A stretch of 49,452 nucleotides of DNA from Verrucomicrobiia bacterium (lineage in GTDB: Bacteria; Verrucomicrobiota; Verrucomicrobiia; Limisphaerales; CAIMTB01), in NCBI GenBank assembly GCA_019634625.1, contig JAHCBA010000046.1:1-49452 (forward strand), in the 5' to 3' direction. Under the pieces are notes generated by a model. That model was not told where the DNA came from. It saw only the letters and a program-made list of their open reading frames with translations, and made no database searches. A program made the position numbers and the translations under genes. Of this stretch, positions 27,947 through 39,479 are shown in pieces; position 1 is the first letter of the stretch, and every line of letters starts with the position of its first letter.

Positions 27947-30754
27947 TCAGGGCTGGTTTGGGGAACCGGATTCGGCGAGGAGCCGGTCGATTTCGGCGAG
28001 GGTGGCCTCGATGTTCCGGAGGGCGGCGGCGTAGTAGTGTTCGGTGTGGAGGAAATGCTCGGCCACGCGGCGGTCGAGGAGCCGGGTGTCGAGGGTGTTT
28101 TCGTCGGGGACGAGCAGGACCTGCCCGCGGCTGAAATTGCGCCGATTCACCCGGGAGGAGCCTCCATTGAGGTTGATGATTTCGCGCAGGAGGAGGGCAC
28201 GTTGGAGGCGGACGAGGTCCTGGGGCTGGTGGATGAGGAGGGTGGAGCGGGGGGTACCGTCGGGCTCGGGTTGGTTCCAGCGCCAGAGGAGTTCGCCCCA
28301 GGTGGTTCGGTCGGGGCAGTCGATGAGGCTGACCTCGGGGATGGGATTACGGGTCAAGGCCCCGGCGGTGATGGCGTCGGTGCCTCGGCGGAAGGTAAGG
28401 GCGAGTGCGCGGTTCGTCTGGGTGGTGAAGAACGAGGCGGCGGTGAGGCCGTCACCAAACCCGGCGAGGATCCGATCCAGGAACTGGACGTCGTAGCCGC
28501 CAGCGTTCTGGTCGGAGAAGAAGATGATGCGATCGGGGGCGATGCGGTTGTCCAGCCAGGCGGGGTCGGAGTCGGAGAGCCGCTTGACGACCTCGTAGAT
28601 CATGCGTTCGACGAGGATGGATTCGCCCGGGACACGACCGTCTGCGAATTCATTGAAAGGGGGCCGGCTGGCGAGGCGGAAGTTGCGTTCGACGACGCGG
28701 CGGGCGAGGTCGCGGTAGCGATTGAGGCGTTCGTTGCGATCGAGGAAGGAGAGGTCGAGGACATCCTCCTCGCGAATGCGGTAGGAGGAGCGGAAGAGGA
28801 CATTGCCGTCGTCGTCGAACTTGGCGTCATCGCGCGGGAGGTAGCGGCCCCAGGCGCGTTCGGATTCGGCCTCGGGCAGCACGTGGGGCGTGAGGACGAT
28901 GATGACCTCCTGTTTGCGGGTGCGGGTGGAGCGGGTGCGGAAGAAGGTGCCGAGATAGGGAATATCGCCGAGGAGCGGGACTTTGCGGCGGATGGACGTG
29001 GTCTGGCGGTTGACGAGGCCGCCGATGATGAACGGGGTGTTGTTGGCGATGCGGGTGTAGGTCTGGACGCGGCGGCTGGCGACGGTGGGGGCGGAGGCGA
29101 GGACTTCGCCGGAGGAGGAGCGGAGTTCGAGGTCGGCACCGGGGATGGGCGCGGAGACGACCGTATCGACCAGCATGCTGACCTCGTTGCCGTCCTCGGT
29201 GATGCGGGGCCGGATGTTGAGGGCGATGCCGGTGGCGAGGTATTTGAAGTTGAAGGAAATGCGGTTGGCATCCTTGACGATGCCGGCTTCGGAGCTGGTG
29301 GCGATGGGGATTTCCTGGCCGACGCGGATGGTGGCCTGGCGGTTATTGAGGGTGAGGACGCTGGGGCGGGATAGGATCTCGGCCTTCTGCTCCTCGACGA
29401 GTGCGCGGAGGCGGACGACCCATTGCTGATCGAGGTCCCGGAGGCTGTCGAAGGTGAGTCCGGCAGTGCCGGAAGCGGCGGGAAGACCGGGGAGGAGGTT
29501 GCCGGCGCCAAGTTCGAGTCCGCCCTCCTGGTATTTCCAATCCACGCCGAGCTCCTTGAGACCCTCCTCGCTGATTTCGAGGATGAGGCCCTCGATGAAG
29601 ATCTGCCGGGCGGGACGGTCGATGAACTCGTCGAGGAGCCGTCGGACGCGGGTGAACTGGTCAGGGCGGTCGGGATGGAAATAGACGAGGACCTGGGACG
29701 AGCGGGCGAGATTCGGGTCGGGCGGGAGGGCGGTGGCGAGGGAAGGCGACATGGATAGGTCGAAGCCGGCGGCGCCTTTCTGGGCATCGACGCCAAGAAG
29801 CGCAGTCTTGGGGCCCTCCGGGGACGGCATACGGGCGACGATGGGGAGACGTTCGAAGGCGACGGGCAGGACGACCTTGGCGGGGCTGTCGGCGGTTTCG
29901 ATCCCGAAGCCCTTGAGGGACTCGATCGCGCCTTCGACGTCGATGTAGCTGACCTGGATCAGGCGAAAGTCGAGATCGTCCCGGGTGAGGGGTTGGCCAC
30001 CCTGTCCGGTGGTGGCGAGCGACGCTTCGGCGAGGCCGAGGGCGGTTGCGAGATCGGGGTTGACCTGCCAGGCGCTGGAGGGATCAGGGCTGCGAAGCGC
30101 CTGGATCCAGAGTTGAGGGGCGCGGGAGATGAAGGGGACGATGCCGAGACGGATGAGGAAGGTTTCCTGGCCTTCAACGCGGGCCAGTTCGAGGAGGCGG
30201 TTTAGGCCTTCCGGTGGCGACGGGAGCAGGGGGTGCGGGGAGGTGGAACCGGAGCGGTAGCCGAGGTCGGCTTCGAGGTGGAGGGCGATGCCAGCCTGGA
30301 GTTCACGGATCTGGGTGATGGTGAGGTTGGGCAGCGCCACAAGGCGCGTGGAGCCGACCGGTGCCGGCGGCGCGGAAACGCCCGCACCAGAACGGCTGGG
30401 GGAGTTGAAGGAAGCAACGGCGGACGGCGATGCCGATGGCGGGCCGGGCTCCCGATCAGCTTCAGGTGACGTCAGGTGCCGGGCGAGCCGGTCAGCATCG
30501 GCGTCATGGAGCTCCGACCAGACATGACCCCGGCTGACGCGGGGAACGTCGAGCGCGAAGCCGGCGAGGGGCGGCGTGGCAGCGACGCAACCGGGGGCTG
30601 GGACGAAGCAGGTGAGGAAGGCCAGTGAGATCCAACGCGAGAGCGAAGCACGCGACGGATGGGATCGCGGGCATGGCTTGGAAGGGTGGATGTCCCGGCC
30701 GCGCACGTTTGAGAGGCTAGGGGCGGGGCGGCTGGGGTCGCCAGCCCAAAGCAT
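27947..30754 (-). CDS. Secretin (GspD/PilQ-like) with long C-terminal extension
   Basis: A 935-residue outer-membrane channel protein. An export signal lies at about 40-58 (RWISLAFLTCFVP). The N-terminal half is low in recognisable motifs; residues about 350-385 look like a GspD N-domain (QVLVYFHPDRPDQF). The secretin domain spans about 385-627 (RQIFIEGLILEISEEGLKEL to KVPLLGDIPYLGTFFR), ending VIIVLTPHV. About 300 residues follow that are not part of the normal secretin. They are rich in Arg/Glu/Asp and resemble nothing I can name. ATG 30754 is the best start. Ordinary gsp partners are not adjacent. Confidence 0.85.
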   Translation of the reverse strand: MLWAGDPSRPAPSLSNVRGRDIHPSKPCPRSHPSRASLSRWISLAFLTCFVPAPGCVAATPPLAGFALDVPRVSRGHVWSELHDADADRLARHLTSPEADREPGPPSASPSAVASFNSPSRSGAGVSAPPAPVGSTRLVALPNLTITQIRELQAGIALHLEADLGYRSGSTSPHPLLPSPPEGLNRLLELARVEGQETFLIRLGIVPFISRAPQLWIQALRSPDPSSAWQVNPDLATALGLAEASLATTGQGGQPLTRDDLDFRLIQVSYIDVEGAIESLKGFGIETADSPAKVVLPVAFERLPIVARMPSPEGPKTALLGVDAQKGAAGFDLSMSPSLATALPPDPNLARSSQVLVYFHPDRPDQFTRVRRLLDEFIDRPARQIFIEGLILEISEEGLKELGVDWKYQEGGLELGAGNLLPGLPAASGTAGLTFDSLRDLDQQWVVRLRALVEEQKAEILSRPSVLTLNNRQATIRVGQEIPIATSSEAGIVKDANRISFNFKYLATGIALNIRPRITEDGNEVSMLVDTVVSAPIPGADLELRSSSGEVLASAPTVASRRVQTYTRIANNTPFIIGGLVNRQTTSIRRKVPLLGDIPYLGTFFRTRSTRTRKQEVIIVLTPHVLPEAESERAWGRYLPRDDAKFDDDGNVLFRSSYRIREEDVLDLSFLDRNERLNRYRDLARRVVERNFRLASRPPFNEFADGRVPGESILVERMIYEVVKRLSDSDPAWLDNRIAPDRIIFFSDQNAGGYDVQFLDRILAGFGDGLTAASFFTTQTNRALALTFRRGTDAITAGALTRNPIPEVSLIDCPDRTTWGELLWRWNQPEPDGTPRSTLLIHQPQDLVRLQRALLLREIINLNGGSSRVNRRNFSRGQVLLVPDENTLDTRLLDRRVAEHFLHTEHYYAAALRNIEATLAEIDRLLAESGSPNQP

Positions 30755-31125
30755 TTCGCCCGATCGCCAATCCAATTGACGAGTCCGGCAGGCTGCCGTG
30801 GTTTCGGAGATGCAACAGATAATAGGCCAGGCGTTTCCTATTTGACTGAAAACTGTTAATAAGCCCGACACGTAATGCTTTACCTCCTGGCACCTGTGGA
30901 CTGCTATAAGCCCGACACTTAGTGCTTTACCTCTGAGCGCCCGGGCGGGTTCTGTCGAGCGACGGGGAGCGGGGTGCCTGCCATTCACGGCATGATGGGG
31001 TTCCTGCCGTTCCCTCGCGGAGAGACGAATGGGCGATCCGGGGCAGTCCCCGTTCCGGCCTGCACGACGGAATGGGTTGCCTGGGGGCGGTCGGCGCCTA
31101 CTCTGCCGCGGTTCGCGAAACGGGC
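30755..31125. other. Divergent spacer between secretin and UreF-like genes
   Basis: A 371-bp gap carrying two near-identical direct repeats (30859-30933, listed separately) in a more AT-rich patch. It must hold divergent promoters, but I see no convincing -35/-10 pair. Confidence 0.5.
30859..30933. repeat. Pair of 28-bp direct repeats
   Basis: Two 28-bp copies at 30859-30886 and 30906-30933 differ at two positions and are spaced 47 bp start to start. Both begin ATAAGCCCGACAC and end TGCTTTACCTC. They sit 105-180 bp upstream of the secretin start. They could be paired regulator sites or part of a dispersed intergenic repeat. Confidence 0.8.
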
Positions 31126-31788
31126 ATGGAGACATCACCACAGGGTCTGGCGTTGACGAGCAGCGAGGAGCTCGCAGGGGACATCGCGCCTTTGCGACGG
31201 GCCTTGGGGGAGCCGGAGGTGCTGGCATCGCTGACAGCCCTGGCGGAACTGGTGGAGGCGCCCCGGCCGGACACGGTGCCGGCGTTGCGGGCATTTCTCG
31301 AACGGTACCGGGATCGGATGCTGATGGCGGTGGAACTTCCGGCCATCCGGCAGGCGTACGATCACGCGATGCGGGGTGAGGTGCGCGAACTGGTGGCGCT
31401 GGATCGCTCGCTGGCGGGGCAACTGGGACGTTCGGCCTTTGCGGACGCCAGCCGTCATACCGGCCGGATGCAGTTGCGCCGGGTGCGGCCATTGCGGCAG
31501 CGGACGTTGCAGCGGTATCTGGGAGCGGTGGAACGGGGGGAGGCGACGGGCTGGCACATGGTGGTGTTCGGGGTCTTGCTGGCGCTCTTCTCGATGCCAC
31601 TGAGGCAGGGGCTGGTGCATTTCGCGATCCAGGCGCAGCGGCAGGTGCTGAATTCGGCGCCGGTGACGGACCGGCTAACCCTATCCGAGCGGAGCCGGCT
31701 GTGTGCGGAGTGTGACGCGCCGGTAGGCGCGGCGGTGCAGCGGCTGATACCGGCTTTCGTGCCGCGGGTGGTCCAGGCCAGCCCATGA
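31126..31788 (+). CDS. UreF-like (urease accessory) protein
   Basis: A 220-residue helical protein. The arrangement ELPAIRQAYDHAMRGEVREL, then VALDRSLAG, then ASRHTGRMQLRR matches the UreF pattern of LPAL, GD..LALD and SRQMGR, and SMPLRQGLVH sits where UreF has its PLGQ region. No urease genes are nearby, so this would be an orphan or repurposed homolog; the family call rests on remembered patterns. ATG 31126 is chosen; ATG 31072 would add 18 unlikely residues. Its stop overlaps the mtnA start by ATGA. Confidence 0.5.
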   Translation: METSPQGLALTSSEELAGDIAPLRRALGEPEVLASLTALAELVEAPRPDTVPALRAFLERYRDRMLMAVELPAIRQAYDHAMRGEVRELVALDRSLAGQLGRSAFADASRHTGRMQLRRVRPLRQRTLQRYLGAVERGEATGWHMVVFGVLLALFSMPLRQGLVHFAIQAQRQVLNSAPVTDRLTLSERSRLCAECDAPVGAAVQRLIPAFVPRVVQASP

Positions 31789-32873
31789 AGGTGACCGTTG
31801 GAGGTCGGGAACGGTGGTTTCGCACGGTGGGATTCGATGCCGGTCGCAATGCGGTGCGCCTGATCGAGCAACGCCTGCTTCCGCATCGGTTCCAGGTGGT
31901 GTCGATGCGGGATTACCCGGCCACGGCGGATGCGATCCGGACCATGGTGGTGCGGGGCGCGGGGGCGATCGGGGCGACGGCGGCCTTCGGGTACGCACAG
32001 GGGATGCGGGCGTTCCGGGGTGCGACCCTGCGGGAATGGCGGCGCGAGGAGGCGATGGTGTTCCGGACGCTGGCCGGGGCCCGGCCCACGGCAGTGGATC
32101 CCCTGAATGCATTGCGCCGGGTGCGGGCGGCGGCGGGGCTGGGAAAGACGGTCAGGGAACGCCAGGCACTGGCCCTGCGGGAGGCGGAAGCGTTTGCCGA
32201 GGAGGACGTCGAGCATTGCCGGCGGATCGGGGAGCACGGGGCGCCACTCATCCGGGACGGGATGCGGGTGCTGACGCACTGCAACGCGGGATGGCTGGCG
32301 TTCGTGGACATCGGCAGCGCGACGGCGCCCCTGTACGCTGCGCAGGCGACGGGGCGGCGATTTGAAGTGTTCTGTGACGAGACGCGGCCGCGGTCGCAGG
32401 GGGCGGCGCTGACGGCGTGGGAACTGGGTCAACAGGGGATTCCGCACGCGATCATCGCGGACAATGCGGCGGGACACCTGATGCAGCGGGGCGAGATTGA
32501 CCTGGTCCTGGTGGGAGCGGACCGGGTGCTGGGTCGGACGGGGGAGGTGGCGAACAAGATCGGAACGTACACGAAGGCGGTGCTGGCCCGCCGTCATGGA
32601 ATTCCGTTCTACGTGGCCATCCCGCTTTCCACGCTCGACTGGGAAACCGGATCCGGGATGGAGATCCCGATCGAGGAGCGGCCGGCCGATGAGGTGCTCC
32701 AGGCGTGGGGCGTAACGCGGGCCGGGAAGCGCATCGCGGTTCGCGTGGCGGCGCCGGGGAGCAACGCCCGGAACCCGGCGTTCGATGTGACGCCGCCGGA
32801 TCTGGTGACGGGAGTGATCACGCCGGAAGGGATCTTTCGACCCTCGGATCTGCAGAAGTGCCGGCCGCGGTAA
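31785..32873 (+). CDS. mtnA: S-methyl-5-thioribose-1-phosphate isomerase MtnA
   Basis: Isomerises methylthioribose-1-phosphate to methylthioribulose-1-phosphate in the methionine salvage pathway. The 362-residue length is normal. Present are VVRGAGAIGATAAFG, Cys166 in LTHCNAGWLA, DETRPRSQGAALTAWEL and Asp246 in VGADRV, the catalytic Cys/Asp pair. Translation is coupled to the UreF-like gene by ATGA. No other mtn genes are in the window. Confidence 0.95.
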   Translation: MKVTVGGRERWFRTVGFDAGRNAVRLIEQRLLPHRFQVVSMRDYPATADAIRTMVVRGAGAIGATAAFGYAQGMRAFRGATLREWRREEAMVFRTLAGARPTAVDPLNALRRVRAAAGLGKTVRERQALALREAEAFAEEDVEHCRRIGEHGAPLIRDGMRVLTHCNAGWLAFVDIGSATAPLYAAQATGRRFEVFCDETRPRSQGAALTAWELGQQGIPHAIIADNAAGHLMQRGEIDLVLVGADRVLGRTGEVANKIGTYTKAVLARRHGIPFYVAIPLSTLDWETGSGMEIPIEERPADEVLQAWGVTRAGKRIAVRVAAPGSNARNPAFDVTPPDLVTGVITPEGIFRPSDLQKCRPR

Positions 32874-33105
32874 GCGATTGGCCGTTCGGCACCGGGGAAT
32901 AGCGGAAGGGATGGCTCGAAGCGGGCATGAAGCCGCAATTCGTGCCTGCATCCGGGCTGCCCTATATCGCTCCCGCCGGCGAAGGCAGCCTCGGCGGGGA
33001 CCCAAGGTCTGCGGGAGCGGGACCGCAACGTTGAGGAATCGGATGGGGCGCCGGGAGGAGCGGCGCAAATGTCAAATTCAGAGATGTGACCCCGGGGCCG
33101 GGAGT

Positions 33106-35106
33106 TTACGTGATCTCGGGAATGCCGATCTCACGGAGGAGTTGATAGGAGGAATCGTAAAATGCCGGCGAGCGCGTGGGATCATGGGGATCCCCGGGGG
33201 GAATGAAGACGACCATGCCTTGTCGCGCCCGGGTGAGCAGGACCCGGTAGGCATTGCGCAGGTACTCGCGGTTGTCGGGGTTCGCGATGTTGCACCAGCG
33301 ATCCCCGCGGAAATCGTGATACGTCCAACCGTTCTCGGCAGCACGAAAGTCCGCATCCCAGGCAACACAGACCCAGTCGAGTTCCAGGCCCTGGACCTGA
33401 AACTCGGTGGCCACATCCTCGAGGTAGTAACTGGATCGCGTGTCCTCGCGATCGTTCAGGAAGTAGTGAACCGGGTTGATGGCGACACGGATGTCGATGG
33501 CATGCGGCTTGAGCCGCATGGACTTCGAGGAGGCCACCAGTCCGTAGCGTTCCGAACCCCGGGCGTGGGAGCGGATCCAGCTCTTGGCCGCGGGGAGGCT
33601 GCGGGTCAGGGCCAGGGGATAGCGGAGGCGGAATTCGGAGAAGGCCTCGCGAGCCTTTTGTCTTTCCCCGTCCAGCAGGGCTTTGATGAATGCGGAAACG
33701 TTCTCCGCCCGGAACGAACGCATGGATACCGCAAGGTGCAGGGAGTCTTCGAAGCGGGTGGCTTGACTCCGCCGGGCGGTCTCCAGGGCGCCGTCCGCGG
33801 CGTATTCCGAGTCAATGAGCCGCGGCGAGATGACCCTGCGCCAGTGTTCGAAGCGGTGGTTCACGGCCTCCAGCCATGCACCAATTCCTGCCTCACCGGT
33901 GTTGATCTCCTGGCCACCCCCCACCAGGCAGATGATCACCGCCCAGTCCGCGTGCCGGTCCAGGTAGGAAATCAGAAACTCCGGCTCCGATTGATCGAAC
34001 CCTGGGCGGTTCTTCTTCCGACGCATGAAGCTCGCCGTCTGCCTGCGATTCCAGGCTCGCTGTGCTTCATCGAAGATCACGACATGCTCCACTGGCGGTC
34101 CGGAGTTGATCAGTCCATCGTCGCGAAAGTGGTGCACGTTCTGGATGAACGCTTTGACGCATTCACCCACCCGCCCTTTGCGAACCCTTTCACCCTGTTC
34201 CTTGCGCCTTTCGCATTCGTCACGGGTCAGGGCTTCACGGAGAACGGCAACCAGCGGGCCGTTCCCGGAGAGGAAAACCGCGTGGGTGGGTTGTTCGGCA
34301 TCACGCCTTCGGGTCGCCACGTTGAGACCGACCAGGGTTTTTCCAGCGCCGGGGACACCGGTGACGAAGCAGATGACCTTCTGACTCGCCGCCCGCGCTT
34401 CGTCGATCAGTTCCTCGATGCGGTGGGACGTTACCTGCAGATTCCGTGCGCCCGCGTCGAATCGCGCAATGGCTTCGACGGAGTGACGCGAGTAGAGGGC
34501 TCGCGCCGCCTCGACGATGGTGGGAGTGGGGCGGTAGGGGGCTCCGGCCCAAGCCGGTCCGTCGATCGCCGCTCCGGACGCGGCGCGAACACCCTCCTCC
34601 AGCACTGTGCGCAGGTCCGACGGATGGGTCAGAATAGGGCGGAACACGCGGTCCGGATCCTTGGTGAGCCGGAGCCGGGGTGGCTGGGGGCATTCGGTGG
34701 CGACGAGGATGGGAACCAGCGACACTTCATGGCTGGCCTCGTGAAAGTTCCTGAGGTCGAGTGCGTAGTCCCAGACCTGGTCGATTGCCGCGCGATCGAA
34801 AACGCGCTCGCCCACCTTGAACTCGATTGCGAAGACCACGGGGCCGATGAGGAGGATCCCATCCACCCGACGCCCCATCCGCGGGATGTTGAACTCAAGG
34901 AACACAGACCCGTCCAGCCCGGGAAGATGGCTGCGGAGAATGTCGATCTGCACCCGCCAGGCATCGCGTTGGGTGGGCAGCACCGCGAAGTCGGAGTGTG
35001 ATGTCAGTTGCCCGAGAACAAGGTCCTGATCGGAGGCCAGGAATTCGGCAATGGACGCCCCGTACCAGGCGCGCAGCGACGATACCATTGGAGTCGTGCC
35101 GGCCAT
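33106..35106 (-). CDS. DUF2075-type DNA/RNA helicase with nuclease-like N-terminus
   Basis: A 666-residue protein. Walker A is GVPGAGKT (250-257) and Walker B VVIFDEAQ (342-349), fitting the DUF2075 superfamily 1 helicase-like family. The N-terminal region has Glu71, Asp82 and Glu95-Phe-Lys97 (FAIEFK), spaced like a PD-(D/E)xK nuclease core. The C-terminal VLLTRARQGMVVFIPPG is the last helicase motif. Such proteins are often accessory or defence-associated, but function is unproven. The gene stands alone between a 232-bp featureless gap (32874-33105) and a WD40 remnant. ATG 35106 or 35088 may be the start. Confidence 0.75.
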   Translation of the reverse strand: MAGTTPMVSSLRAWYGASIAEFLASDQDLVLGQLTSHSDFAVLPTQRDAWRVQIDILRSHLPGLDGSVFLEFNIPRMGRRVDGILLIGPVVFAIEFKVGERVFDRAAIDQVWDYALDLRNFHEASHEVSLVPILVATECPQPPRLRLTKDPDRVFRPILTHPSDLRTVLEEGVRAASGAAIDGPAWAGAPYRPTPTIVEAARALYSRHSVEAIARFDAGARNLQVTSHRIEELIDEARAASQKVICFVTGVPGAGKTLVGLNVATRRRDAEQPTHAVFLSGNGPLVAVLREALTRDECERRKEQGERVRKGRVGECVKAFIQNVHHFRDDGLINSGPPVEHVVIFDEAQRAWNRRQTASFMRRKKNRPGFDQSEPEFLISYLDRHADWAVIICLVGGGQEINTGEAGIGAWLEAVNHRFEHWRRVISPRLIDSEYAADGALETARRSQATRFEDSLHLAVSMRSFRAENVSAFIKALLDGERQKAREAFSEFRLRYPLALTRSLPAAKSWIRSHARGSERYGLVASSKSMRLKPHAIDIRVAINPVHYFLNDREDTRSSYYLEDVATEFQVQGLELDWVCVAWDADFRAAENGWTYHDFRGDRWCNIANPDNREYLRNAYRVLLTRARQGMVVFIPPGDPHDPTRSPAFYDSSYQLLREIGIPEIT

Positions 35107-35150
35107 GTTTGAGGGGAACCCTGCCAGGTGAACGTTTCGATGGGAAGGCG

Positions 35151-35903
35151 GTGGACACCCCGGCAGCAGAGGTATGCCGGGAGCGGGACGATCGGAGGTT
35201 GCAGTCGGCGTCAGGTCGGGGCTCGATTGGATTGCTGCTGGCCGTCCGGCGGGCGGTCGCAGTCCGGGCCAGCGGCGGACCTGGCGGCGGTTCGGTGGAT
35301 CGCGCGGTGTTCTGCCCGGAGGGAGTCCTTCTGCTTACGGGGTCATGGGATGCCTATGCCCGCGTCTGGGACACCCGTACGGGCCGGTTGGTCGGCGTTC
35401 CCATGCTGCACAACGCACGGGTGGCGGAGGTGGCGTTTCATCCTTCGCGGGAGATGATCGCCACGGCCTCCTCGGACGGGGCGGCACGGGTCTGGCGGGT
35501 CGGCGGGGGCGAAGCCGGCGAGATCGCGGCGCAGCACGGAGGTCAGACCGGTGTCACCGCATTCAGCGCGGATGGCACCCTCTGGCTGACGGTGTCCCGG
35601 GACGGTGTCGTGCGGGCATGGGATACGCAGACGTGGACGCCGGTCACGGAACCGCTCCGTCACCGCACCGAAGTGCGTCAGGCGGGGTTTCATCCCGACG
35701 GTCGCACGATCTGGACGTGGGACGCGCTGGGTGTGGCGCGCCGCTGGCCGGTTCCCGCGTACGAGCCTTCGGATGCAGCCTGGCTGCCCGACACCGCCGA
35801 ACTGCTGGGGCGGATGTACCTGGATCGCGCCAACCGCTTCCGGGTCACTTCGGCCGACCGATGGAACACCATCCCGCCGCCGGGGGCGCACGGCATCCGG
35901 TAG
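35151..35903 (+). pseudogene. WD40-repeat protein, probable 3' remnant
   Basis: About 250 codons. From near 35301 they read as three to four WD40 blades (FCPEGVLLLTGSWDAYARVW, ATASSDGAARVW, DGVVRAWD). The ending resembles the C-termini of PVC WD40/kinase proteins. No signal peptide, kinase or other N-terminal domain is present, and the 5' part has no WD40 character. GTG 35151 with GGAAGG upstream is only a possible start, and the open frame further upstream overlaps the helicase gene. Most likely a truncated gene left by rearrangement. Confidence 0.55.
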
Positions 35904-35915
35904 CGGGACCGGGGC

Positions 35916-38900
35916 TCATCGGGGTGCGACGGCGACGGGGATGACAAGGCGGTAGAAGCGGGTGTTGGTGCCCGCCGGAATGCGGTCGAGGGCCGTCGTG
36001 GTTCCGGCATTGCCGACAAAGGGCCCGAGCGGGAGCCATGGTCCCGCGGCGACCGCTTCGCGGTATTCGATGCGATAGGTCCTGTTCGGCGTCGAGGCCC
36101 ACGACAGTTCAACCTCGCCCGCACCGAAACGTCGCACCGCCAGGCGAACGGTCCCCGGGGTCCCGGCGACCGGCGAAAGGGAAAGGTCATCCAGGCCGAA
36201 ACCGTCCGCCTGGATCCCAAGACGTTCCAACTCCACCCGCACAAACGGATGGTTTCGGTCGATCACGCCGAAGAAGAAGGCGCCTCCGCTGCCCTGCGGC
36301 CGGGTCACCGGGACATCGATTTGGGTCCGCCATCCGTCCGGTGTGACGAGGGTGATCTGCAGTCCGGCGCTTTCGCCCAGGTCCGTTGCGTAGAATCCCA
36401 CGGCGGTGCCGGGCTCCGACAGATCGATGGCCCAATGTCCGGCATGGCCGCCGGGAAGCAGAAGCGCCTTGGCACCCGAGATGGGGAAGACGCCATTGAA
36501 CGTCGCGCCCGGGTCGCTGACGGCCACCACTTCGCGCGGCCCGGAAAGGGTGGCAAGAACATCGCCGAAGACCAGCGTGCCGGGCGTGTCCCCGTCCTGG
36601 AACAATTCGAAAGTCTCCTTCTGCGGAGCTTCGAGCGCCGACTCGAAGGCGTGGGCGGCTGCCGAGGATTCCGGCAGGGTGGCCGGGCGGGGCACGACGT
36701 TGGGGCCGCCGACGGGGTGCGGACTGACGTCCTCGCCGAAGAAAACCGTGGGCGGCAGGGCCTGCGGCATGTTCAACCGGGCGGCCCGGCTGACCGACAG
36801 GCCGTGCGGATTGGAGATGGCGACCGAGAACGTCGCCCCTGCGTCGGCGAGGGCGAGATCCTCGAGGGCATAGGTCGCCCCGGTGGCTCCCTCGACCGGT
36901 TGTCCGTTGCGGGTCCACTGGTAGTTGAAGGGCCGGGCTCCGATGGCCACGACCGAGAAGGACACCGTATCGCCCACGGCGGCGGTCACATCGGCGGGCT
37001 GCGTCACCAGAGTGGGCGCGAAGCCGGGCGGGCCGGGAATCCCCTCCTTCATCACCTCGATCACCTCGGCCTGGCTGAGCGCCCGTTCCCACAGGGTGAG
37101 TTCATCGAGGGCGCCCTGGAAGACGGCACCCTCGGCGACCATCGCCCGGACCAGCGTGCCCACCGCCGTCCGATCGAAGGGGAACGATCCGCTCCGGGTG
37201 TAGGCAAAGTCCGTCGGGTCCGGTTCGCCGTCGATGTAGAGTCGCGCCTGTCCCCGGTCATCCACCCACGCCACGTGGCGCCAGGTGTCGTCGAACACCA
37301 CCCCTGTTGAAACGCGATGATTCACCGGTGTCGTCCCGGCGCTGTTGCGGACGATGACGTCGAAGCGATCCTGGTTGGCCGCGACCTGGCCGGTCTGGAG
37401 GATGAGGAGGGGATTGTTGCCGGTGCTGGAGCCATGGCTGAAGAGGTACTTTCCGGTTTGAGGCGGACCTTTGACCCACATTGCGATGGTGTAGCTCTCC
37501 GCCCCGAAGACCGGCAGCCCGGTGGCGGCGGGGTCGGCGTCATGATCGATCCGGAGATACTGGCCCGCGCCGCTCAGTCCCACGGCGTTGCCCCGCCGTC
37601 CCGGCACCGTTTGAGGGGCGCCGACCGCGACGAGGTGATTGCCGGAGACCCAGTCCGGTGCGCGTTCGCCCACCTCCTCGAAGGCCCAGTACGAGACCAG
37701 GCCCCGGCGGATGTCCTCGCTCAGGGCGGCCATGGCGCAGGGCAGGGCATCGTCGCGTCCCCGGTCTGTGAGCACGCGGTTGACGCATCCTGCGGCTTCG
37801 GACGGGCTGGCGGCCTGGTCCTGGCACTCGGCGACCAGGAAGACCAGGAGGGCCATGCCGGCACTGGCCTGGGCGCGCGACTGAGGGAGTCCCGGAAAGG
37901 GCTCTTCGAAGGGATCCGGACAACCGGCGGCCTCGATGCGCCGTTGGATCAGGGCTTCGGAACTGCGTGCCTGCGCCTGCTGCCGTTCGAGCTGGTTCAG
38001 TTCCTCCCAGCGGGCGCGGCGCTGGGCGTCGGTCAGTGCCGGCATCGGCCCGATGCCGCTCTCAATGTCGAGACCGAGACCGGGATCGTCGTCGGTGCCG
38101 GACACCGATGGCGGTGCCAACGCGGCCGGCGAAACGGCTCCCGAGCCGATTCCGCCACTTCCGAGGAAGACCCGGGCGACATCGTCGGTGAGCTGGTTCA
38201 TGTCGGCGCCGGTTTCATTGGCGAGGAGCGCGACGCCGAAGTTGCGGGAGGACCAGACGGTGAATCGGGCCTTGAAGCCGGGATAGGCGCCGTCGTGCAG
38301 ATAGACCGGCAGGCCGAGTTTCGTCCCCAGCAGCATCCCGAGTCCGAACCGCAGACTGCCTTGGGCGCCGTGCTCGGTGAGCATCTGTGTCCGGGAGGCT
38401 GAAGAGACGATGCTGTTGTTCTGCAGCGCGACCATGAGGCGGACCATGTCGCCGATGGTCATGGCCCAGCCTCCGGCGGGTCCCTCCCAGCCGGCCGGCC
38501 CGCCGGCGAGGGAGTCGTAGGTGGCGGGAACGTAGTTCGAGGTCGCTTCGTTCCACGTGTAGCCGCCGGCCAGCCATGGGATGTCTTCGGCGCGCCAGGG
38601 GGGATTGAGGCCCGGCGAGATCATCTGGTTGGGGTCGCTCAGGCGCCCGCCGTAGTAGCCGACATACCGCCAGATGAACGACTCGTAGCGGGAGTGGGGG
38701 ACACCGAGGCTGGCAACGCTGGATCCTGCCACCGTTTCGATGAGGGCGCCGAGCACCAGATACCCGGCGTTGGAATAGCGGGCCGTCTCGCCGGTTTCGA
38801 AACCGATGACCGGGGTCCCGGCGTAACTGTGGATCACCAGCGACGGATGGATTCCCAACTGGGCGCTGGGAGGCTGCAACCAGGGAAAGAGATGGGTGCT

Positions 38901-39479
38901 GAGGCTCTCGGAGGTGCTCAGGGCCGCGGACATCCGGGCCTCCCGTTGCAGCCCCGAGGTGTGGGAGAGCAACTGCCGGGGGGTGATGCCGGACCACGCC
39001 GTCGGCACCCCCAGATGTTCCTGGATCGGGTCATCGAGGCCCACGAGCCCCATCTCGACCATGCGCAGAAGACCGAGCGCCGTCAGCGTCTTCGACACGG
39101 ACCCGACCATCGACATGGTGGCGTGGGTGAACGGGTGATTCCGCTCACGATCTGCCAGGCCATACCCCTTCAAGTGGCGGATGGCGTTGTTCTCCATGAT
39201 GCCCACCGCCACACCGGGGGGGGCGCCGGAACGGGCCAGGTAGTTCGAGACGACGACGTCCACCCCGGCCGGCATGCCCATCCACTGGGTGTCCTTCCAA
39301 TCGGTCACGAGCTGGTTGGCATTGGGATACTGGTCCGGGCCGGTCTGGCGCGGGGCGCATCCCGCCAGGCCGGCCAGGACGGCGAGGAGCACCATGCCCT
39401 TGGAGCCCTGCCGGCGGACGCGATGGCCGGGGGGTGACAGGTACTGGGGACCGGGCAGGCATGGGAACGTCAGGCTCAT
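35916..39479 (-). CDS. Large lipoprotein: serine hydrolase (beta-lactamase fold) + LamG + Ig-like modules
   Basis: A 1187-residue multidomain surface protein. A lipobox (LAGLAGC, Cys41) predicts lipidation. The beta-lactamase/DD-peptidase-fold domain (about 60-440) has SVSK (127-130), YSN (235-237) and a HDGAYPG C-terminal motif. A helical linker leads to a LamG/concanavalin-like domain (about 640-820; SYWAFEEVGE, AMWVKGP). An Ig-like module follows (about 845-925; QPADVTAAVGDTVSFSV), then beta domains ending YRIEYREAVA...FYRLVIP. Hydrolase plus adhesion-type modules suggests a surface enzyme held on a polymer. ATG 39479 supplies a basic n-region before the lipobox. Confidence 0.75.
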   Translation of the reverse strand: MSLTFPCLPGPQYLSPPGHRVRRQGSKGMVLLAVLAGLAGCAPRQTGPDQYPNANQLVTDWKDTQWMGMPAGVDVVVSNYLARSGAPPGVAVGIMENNAIRHLKGYGLADRERNHPFTHATMSMVGSVSKTLTALGLLRMVEMGLVGLDDPIQEHLGVPTAWSGITPRQLLSHTSGLQREARMSAALSTSESLSTHLFPWLQPPSAQLGIHPSLVIHSYAGTPVIGFETGETARYSNAGYLVLGALIETVAGSSVASLGVPHSRYESFIWRYVGYYGGRLSDPNQMISPGLNPPWRAEDIPWLAGGYTWNEATSNYVPATYDSLAGGPAGWEGPAGGWAMTIGDMVRLMVALQNNSIVSSASRTQMLTEHGAQGSLRFGLGMLLGTKLGLPVYLHDGAYPGFKARFTVWSSRNFGVALLANETGADMNQLTDDVARVFLGSGGIGSGAVSPAALAPPSVSGTDDDPGLGLDIESGIGPMPALTDAQRRARWEELNQLERQQAQARSSEALIQRRIEAAGCPDPFEEPFPGLPQSRAQASAGMALLVFLVAECQDQAASPSEAAGCVNRVLTDRGRDDALPCAMAALSEDIRRGLVSYWAFEEVGERAPDWVSGNHLVAVGAPQTVPGRRGNAVGLSGAGQYLRIDHDADPAATGLPVFGAESYTIAMWVKGPPQTGKYLFSHGSSTGNNPLLILQTGQVAANQDRFDVIVRNSAGTTPVNHRVSTGVVFDDTWRHVAWVDDRGQARLYIDGEPDPTDFAYTRSGSFPFDRTAVGTLVRAMVAEGAVFQGALDELTLWERALSQAEVIEVMKEGIPGPPGFAPTLVTQPADVTAAVGDTVSFSVVAIGARPFNYQWTRNGQPVEGATGATYALEDLALADAGATFSVAISNPHGLSVSRAARLNMPQALPPTVFFGEDVSPHPVGGPNVVPRPATLPESSAAAHAFESALEAPQKETFELFQDGDTPGTLVFGDVLATLSGPREVVAVSDPGATFNGVFPISGAKALLLPGGHAGHWAIDLSEPGTAVGFYATDLGESAGLQITLVTPDGWRTQIDVPVTRPQGSGGAFFFGVIDRNHPFVRVELERLGIQADGFGLDDLSLSPVAGTPGTVRLAVRRFGAGEVELSWASTPNRTYRIEYREAVAAGPWLPLGPFVGNAGTTTALDRIPAGTNTRFYRLVIPVAVAPR

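Follow-up and report, generated by a model that had tools for sequence, protein, structure and literature searches.

A gene for a putative nuclease-helicase lies next to a truncated WD40 gene in this verrucomicrobial DNA, which raises the questions of whether it is a solitary gene for phage defence and whether its arrival disrupted the neighbour, as the initial annotation had suggested. The window, by which we mean the whole 49,452-base stretch of DNA analysed here, is one entire contig of a 6.74-Mb, 88-contig genome, and this genome carries the nuclease-helicase gene as a single copy. The gene product comprises 666 amino acids (ORF 33106-35106, minus strand). The upper part of the annotated interval, 35107-35903, corresponds to the plus-strand WD40 ORF, which spans 34998-35903 and overlaps the nuclease-helicase gene at its start. 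The features are as follows.

33106..35106, minus strand: gene for a PD-(D/E)xK nuclease plus Schlafen-group-3 SF1 helicase, PDC-S41 family (PDC-S41, 917 bits; Pfam SLFN-g3_helicase, 263 bits)
34531..35106, minus strand: predicted PD-(D/E)xK nuclease domain, residues 1-192 (AlphaFold2 model, conserved residues, structure matches)
33199..34380, minus strand: SF1 helicase core, residues 243-636 (Pfam, UvrD and SLFN11 structure matches, invariant motifs)
35280..35903, plus strand: WD40 remnant lacking its 5' part, corresponding to the C-terminal portion of a WD40 protein that has about 1200 aa in relatives (Pfam and genus comparison)
32874..33105, no strand: gap of 232 bases from mtnA to the stop codon of the nuclease-helicase gene (no ORF of at least 60 aa wholly inside)

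The gap, which had been called featureless, indeed follows directly on the end of mtnA at 32873 and is crossed only by frames that run through it. A long plus-strand ORF (32878-35001) has no match in Pfam and lies opposite the nuclease-helicase gene, and is therefore taken as a shadow frame. No promoter-like sites were found, terminator-like sites number 2 against 1.8 expected, and the sole tRNA of the window lies at 736-810.

Two predicted domains and their conservation

The superfamily 1 helicase core proposed earlier is real, as Pfam assigns residues 243-636 to SLFN-g3_helicase (PF09848, of which DUF2075 is presumably the older name) with 263.4 bits and an E value of 4.6e-78, exceeding the gathering cut-off of 24 bits. 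Its motifs are Walker A (249-257), DEAQR (346-350), GGGQE (396-400), QGLE (572-575) and TRAR (625-628). In structural comparison, the helicase half gives the highest motor Z score with UvrD (4c2t_A; Z 17.5, 4.2 Å, 322 aligned residues), and SLFN11 (7zel_A) is matched with Z 16.3 at 9.6 Å over 387 residues. Foldseek with the whole model places SLFN11 at the top of its list, with RecBCD chain D and Dna2 within the best ten.

Conservation was assessed in an alignment of 77 proteins (A1), composed of those from 80 loci minus eight with an early stop, a missing end or an unclear start (L057, L072, L074, L078, L080, L102, L107 and L108), plus four relatives from the order (L026, L028, L030 and L031) and the window protein itself. 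Identity to the window protein is 55-79% in 72 of the 76 others and 43-47% in the remaining four. The helicase residues T249, P252-T257, F345-R350, G396-E400 and Q572-E575 are invariant throughout (77/77), as are R621, T625, R626 and R628. The window protein by itself retrieved nothing from the PDB by sequence at an E value of 1 or better, and the A1 profile matched SLFN5 (E 0.097) and SLFN11 (E 0.24) at the P-loop stretch. The top PDB matches of this profile, potassium-channel chains (E 0.005-0.007), fall on the same stretch and were rejected as chance for that reason.

In the N-terminal region, the residues to which the initial annotation had drawn attention, E71, D82, E95 and K97, are located at the positions given there and are invariant in all 77 aligned proteins. 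The other N-terminal residues with this property are P75, R76, R80, F96, Q110, D113, Y114, D117 and L118. A plasmid homologue of 31% identity likewise keeps E71, D82, E95, K97, Q110 and Y114. This conservation suggests strong selection on both active sites.

Fold prediction, which had been proposed as a check, yields a model with a nuclease core at about residues 10-190 (AlphaFold2; pLDDT 93.7 for the N-terminal model from 41 sequences and 83.6 for the full-length model from 77). The predicted elements are a helix (44-60), three strands (66-74, 79-87 and 90-97), a second helix (105-121) and a further strand (129-136), where E71, D82 and the pair E95/K97 sit on the first, second and third strands, respectively, and Q110 and Y114 on the helix 105-121. 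We take this layout to be that of a usual PD-(D/E)xK nuclease with a QxxxY-type helix. By the predicted model and the invariance, the domain belongs to the PD-(D/E)xK nucleases: its core is of the alpha-beta-beta-beta-alpha-beta type, with E, D and ExK each on the element where they would be expected. The nuclease-helicase design proposed earlier is borne out by motif, conservation and predicted fold.

Structural matches of the nuclease domain in VIA-align are Can2 (8q41_B; Z 9.1, 4.5 Å, 147 aligned residues), which is the best fold match, McrC (6hz4_M; Z 8.1, 4.4 Å, 133 aligned), Cdn1 (8z4i_B; Z 8.1), EndoMS (5gke_A; Z 7.5) and Hjc (1gef_B; Z 6.6). Foldseek found no match for the nuclease-domain model at an E value of 0.001 or better, so that the assignment rests on topology, residues and middling Z scores taken together. 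Pfam returned nothing for residues 1-192 of the window protein; among 41 relatives it gave hints below threshold to NERD (13/41, best E 0.0084), HSDR_N (3) and PDDEXK_9 (3), together with one stray ABM match (E 0.0014).

Family, distribution and neighbourhood

PADLOC-DB of 2023 already lists this family as the single-gene phage defence candidate PDC-S41 (PADLOC-DB 2.0.0, PDLC05014). The model matches residues 12-665 of the window protein with 917.5 bits and an E value of 1.1e-276, covering positions 3-653 of its 657, and a rerun together with control genomes gave 917.8 bits. Only one of 14 well-known control genomes, Deinobacterium chartae, has a match. No essential difference between the window copy and PDC-S41 was seen, and among named relatives those nearest to the window copy are verrucomicrobial MAGs. 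The accessible text of PMC11514479 presents 'phage defence candidate' (PDC) genes as found with PADLOC. A search of the open literature, with most subscription papers and every bioRxiv preprint outside its reach, retrieved no paper naming PDC-S41 and no functional report on PDC-S41, phage-linked DUF2075 or COG3410; the titles that it did retrieve were those of genome descriptions or probiotic studies. Judging from sequence and model, we regard the nuclease-helicase as a defence gene candidate of a known family, which is probably DNA-degrading.

The distribution of the gene is patchy. A full-length copy is present in two of the five genomes of the genus, including that of the window, and a third has only a weak match of 89 residues. 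Across the order, where 293 genomes were sampled from a larger group and at most four candidates were scored per genome, matches occur in 45 genomes, in 25 of the 154 of good quality and in 27 of 118 genera. In 25 of the 45 positive genomes, a single unbroken match covers at least 90% of the query, and in ten, by our reading, copies are broken within one contig (G011, G051, G073, G099, G100, G101, G139, G150, G181 and G209). Some of the interruptions, particularly in the six-piece copy of G100, may be assembly errors.

Relatives are encoded by 422 stretches in genome_contigs. The 80 of these that were retained for analysis include records with labels of Verrucomicrobiota, Acidobacteriota, Pseudomonadota, Planctomycetota, Lentisphaerota, Kiritimatiellota and other phyla. 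In a quick tree, starred branches force at least 4 of the 9 changes that Verrucomicrobiota requires and at least 7 of the 10 that Pseudomonadota requires, and Solimonas fluminis, a record without a MAG label, falls within a mostly verrucomicrobial part, on unstarred branches. Mis-binned contigs could explain part of the phylum mixing. Judged by these sequences, the family apparently moves horizontally between distant bacteria. Relatives at 1e-5 are carried by 4 of 72,556 plasmid records and by 1 of 50,697 phage records, the latter unverified; a pattern scan of viral_contigs, sensitive to close relatives only, found none, and E. coli has no match to the gene at the DNA level.

This distribution bears on whether the protein serves its own cell in DNA repair or recombination, as a small AddAB- or Dna2-like enzyme with phage defence as a side effect at most. 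Such a role would fit the presence of RecBCD chain D and Dna2 in the Foldseek list for the whole model, that of EndoMS and Hjc among the nuclease matches, and the location of the window copy among genes such as mtnA and the UreF-like gene, with an aspartokinase-like gene further off. However, 248 of the 293 order genomes, many of them incomplete bins, and 129 of the 154 good ones have no match, the phyla are mixed in the tree, copies are interrupted in 10 of 45 positive genomes, and the family figures among the defence candidates of PADLOC. We therefore consider a repair enzyme rather unlikely.

Conservation in synteny across the order, which would have spoken against a solitary defence gene, was not observed. 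The nearest relative, 79% identical and from the same genus, shares no neighbour with the window copy: on its 6.3-kb contig, the only window ORFs with matches are the gene and its shadow frames. No flanking family occurs within 3 kb in more than 5 of 75 loci, many of which have short flanks, and the gene thus looks like a single-gene module. The PADLOC scan of ten window ORFs, the gene and the WD40 remnant not among them, gave no match, and hence no defence island is seen around the window copy.

Defence genes are found near some relatives. The Exiguobacterium plasmid homologue is surrounded, according to its annotation, by McrC, an AAA ATPase, two methyltransferases and an HNH protein; a ZacB (Azaca) match lies beside the relative in L035, and the set of ORFs to which this match belongs also contains one match to ZacA; an AbiEii gene lies beside the relative in Solimonas. 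At a threshold of 1e-10, 73 PADLOC models were matched by a set of 114 flank ORFs, compared with 4 models by a control set of 112. These are counts of models rather than distinct members, the ORFs of both sets are mechanical, and genomes and phyla are incompletely matched. For the flank set, 13 of the 29 loci that have 5 kb on either side supplied 114 of the 241 ORFs; for the control set, picked before scanning, 13 of the 16 stretches supplied 112 of the 129. Many of the 73 models overlap with one another, being models for helicases (DpdF, GajB) or of protease type, and when 10 large flank ORFs were scanned one at a time, 8 had no PADLOC match, so that the true excess is smaller than the counts suggest. 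ORFs that by their letters were read as Mrr-like or Vsr-like were each counted, with blast, at 6 of 80 distinct loci (81 records, one contig occurring twice as L032 and L132), and the same queries gave 0 in the 16 control stretches, which cover 0.19 Mb against 1.17 Mb.

The initial claim of a solitary defence gene is hence supported in part: membership in PDC-S41, the lack of a partner, the patchy and apparently mobile distribution and the defence genes near relatives all favour it, and they do so for a candidate, not for an established defence gene. The same wide and mixed distribution would accord with a selfish or plasmid-stabilising nuclease that spreads with mobile DNA and brings no benefit against phages. 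In Limnohabitans sp. JirII-31, the next gene downstream of the copy is an integrase-core (rve) transposase (L110:12053-12922), with Dus and PurH on the other side of the copy, and a PIN-domain ORF lies 1.3 kb from the closest relative. Mobile-element or antitoxin partners are not recurrent, however, with at most 5 of 75 loci per family, and only the four plasmid records noted above carry a relative, which makes a selfish nuclease very improbable.

Two small families were also noted in the flanks. The commonest (tblastn), a conserved protein of about 85 aa with no assigned function, occurs at 7 of 80 distinct loci (L033, L045, L050, L052, L060, L065 and L067); at four of them (L033, L045, L050 and L052) it is encoded upstream, on the opposite strand and no more than about 350 bases away, and in L060 it lies downstream. 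The second, of about 100 aa, occurs at 6 of 80 (L042, L043, L046, L050, L056 and L080). Neither has a match in the window.

Proposed action and relation to known proteins

The reading that we consider reasonably likely is a single-protein defence enzyme, a nuclease-helicase that acts on DNA. Its computational support consists of the two-domain fold, the invariance of both active sites, the family membership, the apparent horizontal spread and the lack of a recurrent partner. The SF1 motor would load on exposed DNA, such as an end, a gap or a replication fork in the DNA of an invading phage or plasmid, and would translocate or unwind it with ATP, feeding a strand to the N-terminal nuclease. The nuclease would then cut this strand using a divalent metal held by E71, D82, E95 and K97. 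We infer the substrate to be DNA rather than RNA and the target to be foreign DNA, and the survival or death of the defending cell is likewise a matter of inference. By analogy with Nhi and Hna, the trigger might be a phage single-strand-binding protein. The PDC-S41 candidate thereby gains a concrete model, with two active sites, named residues and a single-gene module distributed over many phyla.

Nhi and Hna resemble the window protein in combining nuclease and helicase domains in one polypeptide, and are described as single proteins that respond to phage SSB in the accessible part of PMC10732053, where a model of Nhi degrading phage DNA is also cited. The PADLOC model of Nhi matches the window protein with only 13.4 bits over residues 241-269, the Walker A stretch, and full-length membership is not seen. 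Membership in Gabija is not seen either, as GajB gives only 11.6 bits over 46 residues and no GajA partner was matched by PADLOC among the ten window ORFs scanned. McrC and Can2 have the nuclease fold in common with the window protein (Z 8.1 and 9.1), but neither a McrB GTPase partner nor a CARF sensor is seen here, and the motor is fused in cis.

The human group III Schlafens SLFN11 and SLFN14 have in common with the window protein the Pfam SLFN-g3 helicase and a globular domain directly before it. They differ in that the family described here has the invariant E/D/ExK nuclease residues and no match to the Slfn core RNase. Pfam gives no match to this core domain in the window protein or in seven further members, which by this criterion places them outside Schlafen groups I-III. 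An RNA-directed enzyme that, like the vertebrate Schlafens, acts for example on tRNA and shuts down the infected cell would accord with the group 3 helicase and the top rank of SLFN11 in Foldseek, and Can2, the best match of the nuclease domain, is reported to cut RNA as well as DNA. Against such an enzyme stand the lack of a Pfam match to the core RNase in these eight proteins and the fact that McrC, EndoMS and Hjc are DNA enzymes, as is the helicase UvrD with its highest motor Z; we regard it as very unlikely.

A separate idea concerns the origin of the Schlafen linker domain, for which it is a testable proposal. The 'linker' of vertebrate group II and III Schlafens might be the decayed descendant of a PD-(D/E)xK nuclease that is intact in the bacterial family, although we consider this quite unlikely. 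The nuclease model aligns weakly with the SLFN14 linker (9nyy_A; Z 6.2, 4.2 Å, 130 residues; model 5-192 to chain 389-552), and model residues 18-637 are colinear with SLFN11 404-899, at 9.6 Å and in identical domain order. An equally doubtful part of this idea is that the SWAVDL motif is a relic of the QxxxY-type helix (DYALDL, residues 113-118). If it were true, the two-domain nuclease-helicase would resemble the ancestral Schlafen before the addition of the Slfn RNase.

Several observations argue against linker descent. The Z of 6.2 lies in the commonplace range of the tool, and the nuclease-domain profile matched no PDB chain at an E value of 10 or better. The motif pairing needs a large gap, as 40 residues separate SLFN11 404 from SWAVDL and 95 separate the matched positions here, the SLFN14 version of the motif reads SWAGDV, and the similarity of letters between SWAVDL and DYALDL was noticed post hoc. 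In the accessible portions of the literature, SWAVDL is assigned to SLFN11 444-449 (PMC9482658) and is helical in structures (PMC12499436), and the linker is said to be of unknown function (PMC8789055). Those portions of the Schlafen papers treat it variously as a connector, as a part of the autoinhibition of the helicase or as a domain with no known function, and nowhere as a nuclease fold; a 2025 preprint on bacterial Schlafens appears among the references in the available part of PMC12839542.

The WD40 remnant and the remaining genes

The initial annotation took the WD40 ORF for a remnant without its 5' part, and the genus comparison agrees: 217 residues match WD40 repeats in five of five genus genomes, often in open frames of about 1200 aa. 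In the relative L134, the open frame was also seen by eye to contain a Ser/Thr kinase. In the window copy, similarity to WD40 becomes clear from about 35280-35310 on. The fragment has its start within the propeller, and the C-terminal end seems to be preserved; the 5' loss is therefore well supported. The genus genomes are rich in WD40 repeats, with 48 to 129 matching stretches per genome and several per protein.

The further suggestion, that recombination had inserted the gene next to the WD40 gene or within it, was not substantiated, as no empty site was found and the flanking repeats are short and imperfect. Nothing was found that causally links the WD40 breakage to the arrival of the nuclease-helicase gene. 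In the mtnA regions of three genus genomes, only UreF, mtnA and shadow frames match the window ORFs (those of at least 100 aa, from about 20 kb on). Direct repeats were found in nine families of two copies each, with lengths of 14-34 bases and identities of 76-93%. Two of them flank the gene, namely 32992-33025 with 35878-35911 (76% over 34 bases), a pair that encloses the WD40 remnant as well, and 32851-32866 with 35089-35104 (81% over 16 bases). They were rejected as an insertion footprint, since short two-copy families often arise by chance.

In base composition, the nuclease-helicase gene has a GC of 0.633 and a GC3 of 0.762, against 0.637-0.705 and 0.79-0.86 in eight neighbours that were judged to be real genes partly by the same base composition. 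The composition table has 15 rows, from which the gene, the WD40 remnant and five others, including 27947-30600, which was read out of frame, were set aside. The slightly low GC and GC3 are not decisive for a foreign origin.

Among the other genes of the window, the minus-strand ORF 27947-30547 has letters that we take to resemble a type II/III secretin motif, and it has no PADLOC match. The minus-strand ORF 35916-39479 encodes a protein of 1187 aa. Pfam places a Beta-lactamase (serine hydrolase) domain at its residues 85-428, and the protein also has a LamG-like domain and weak matches to Ig-like domains; NCBIfam class C beta-lactamase names score far below their cut-offs, and thus no resistance gene is implied. 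A UreF-like protein overlaps mtnA (31072-32873, plus strand). The pair, which is kept in three genus genomes, is unusual in that it joins a protein resembling a urease accessory protein to methionine salvage.
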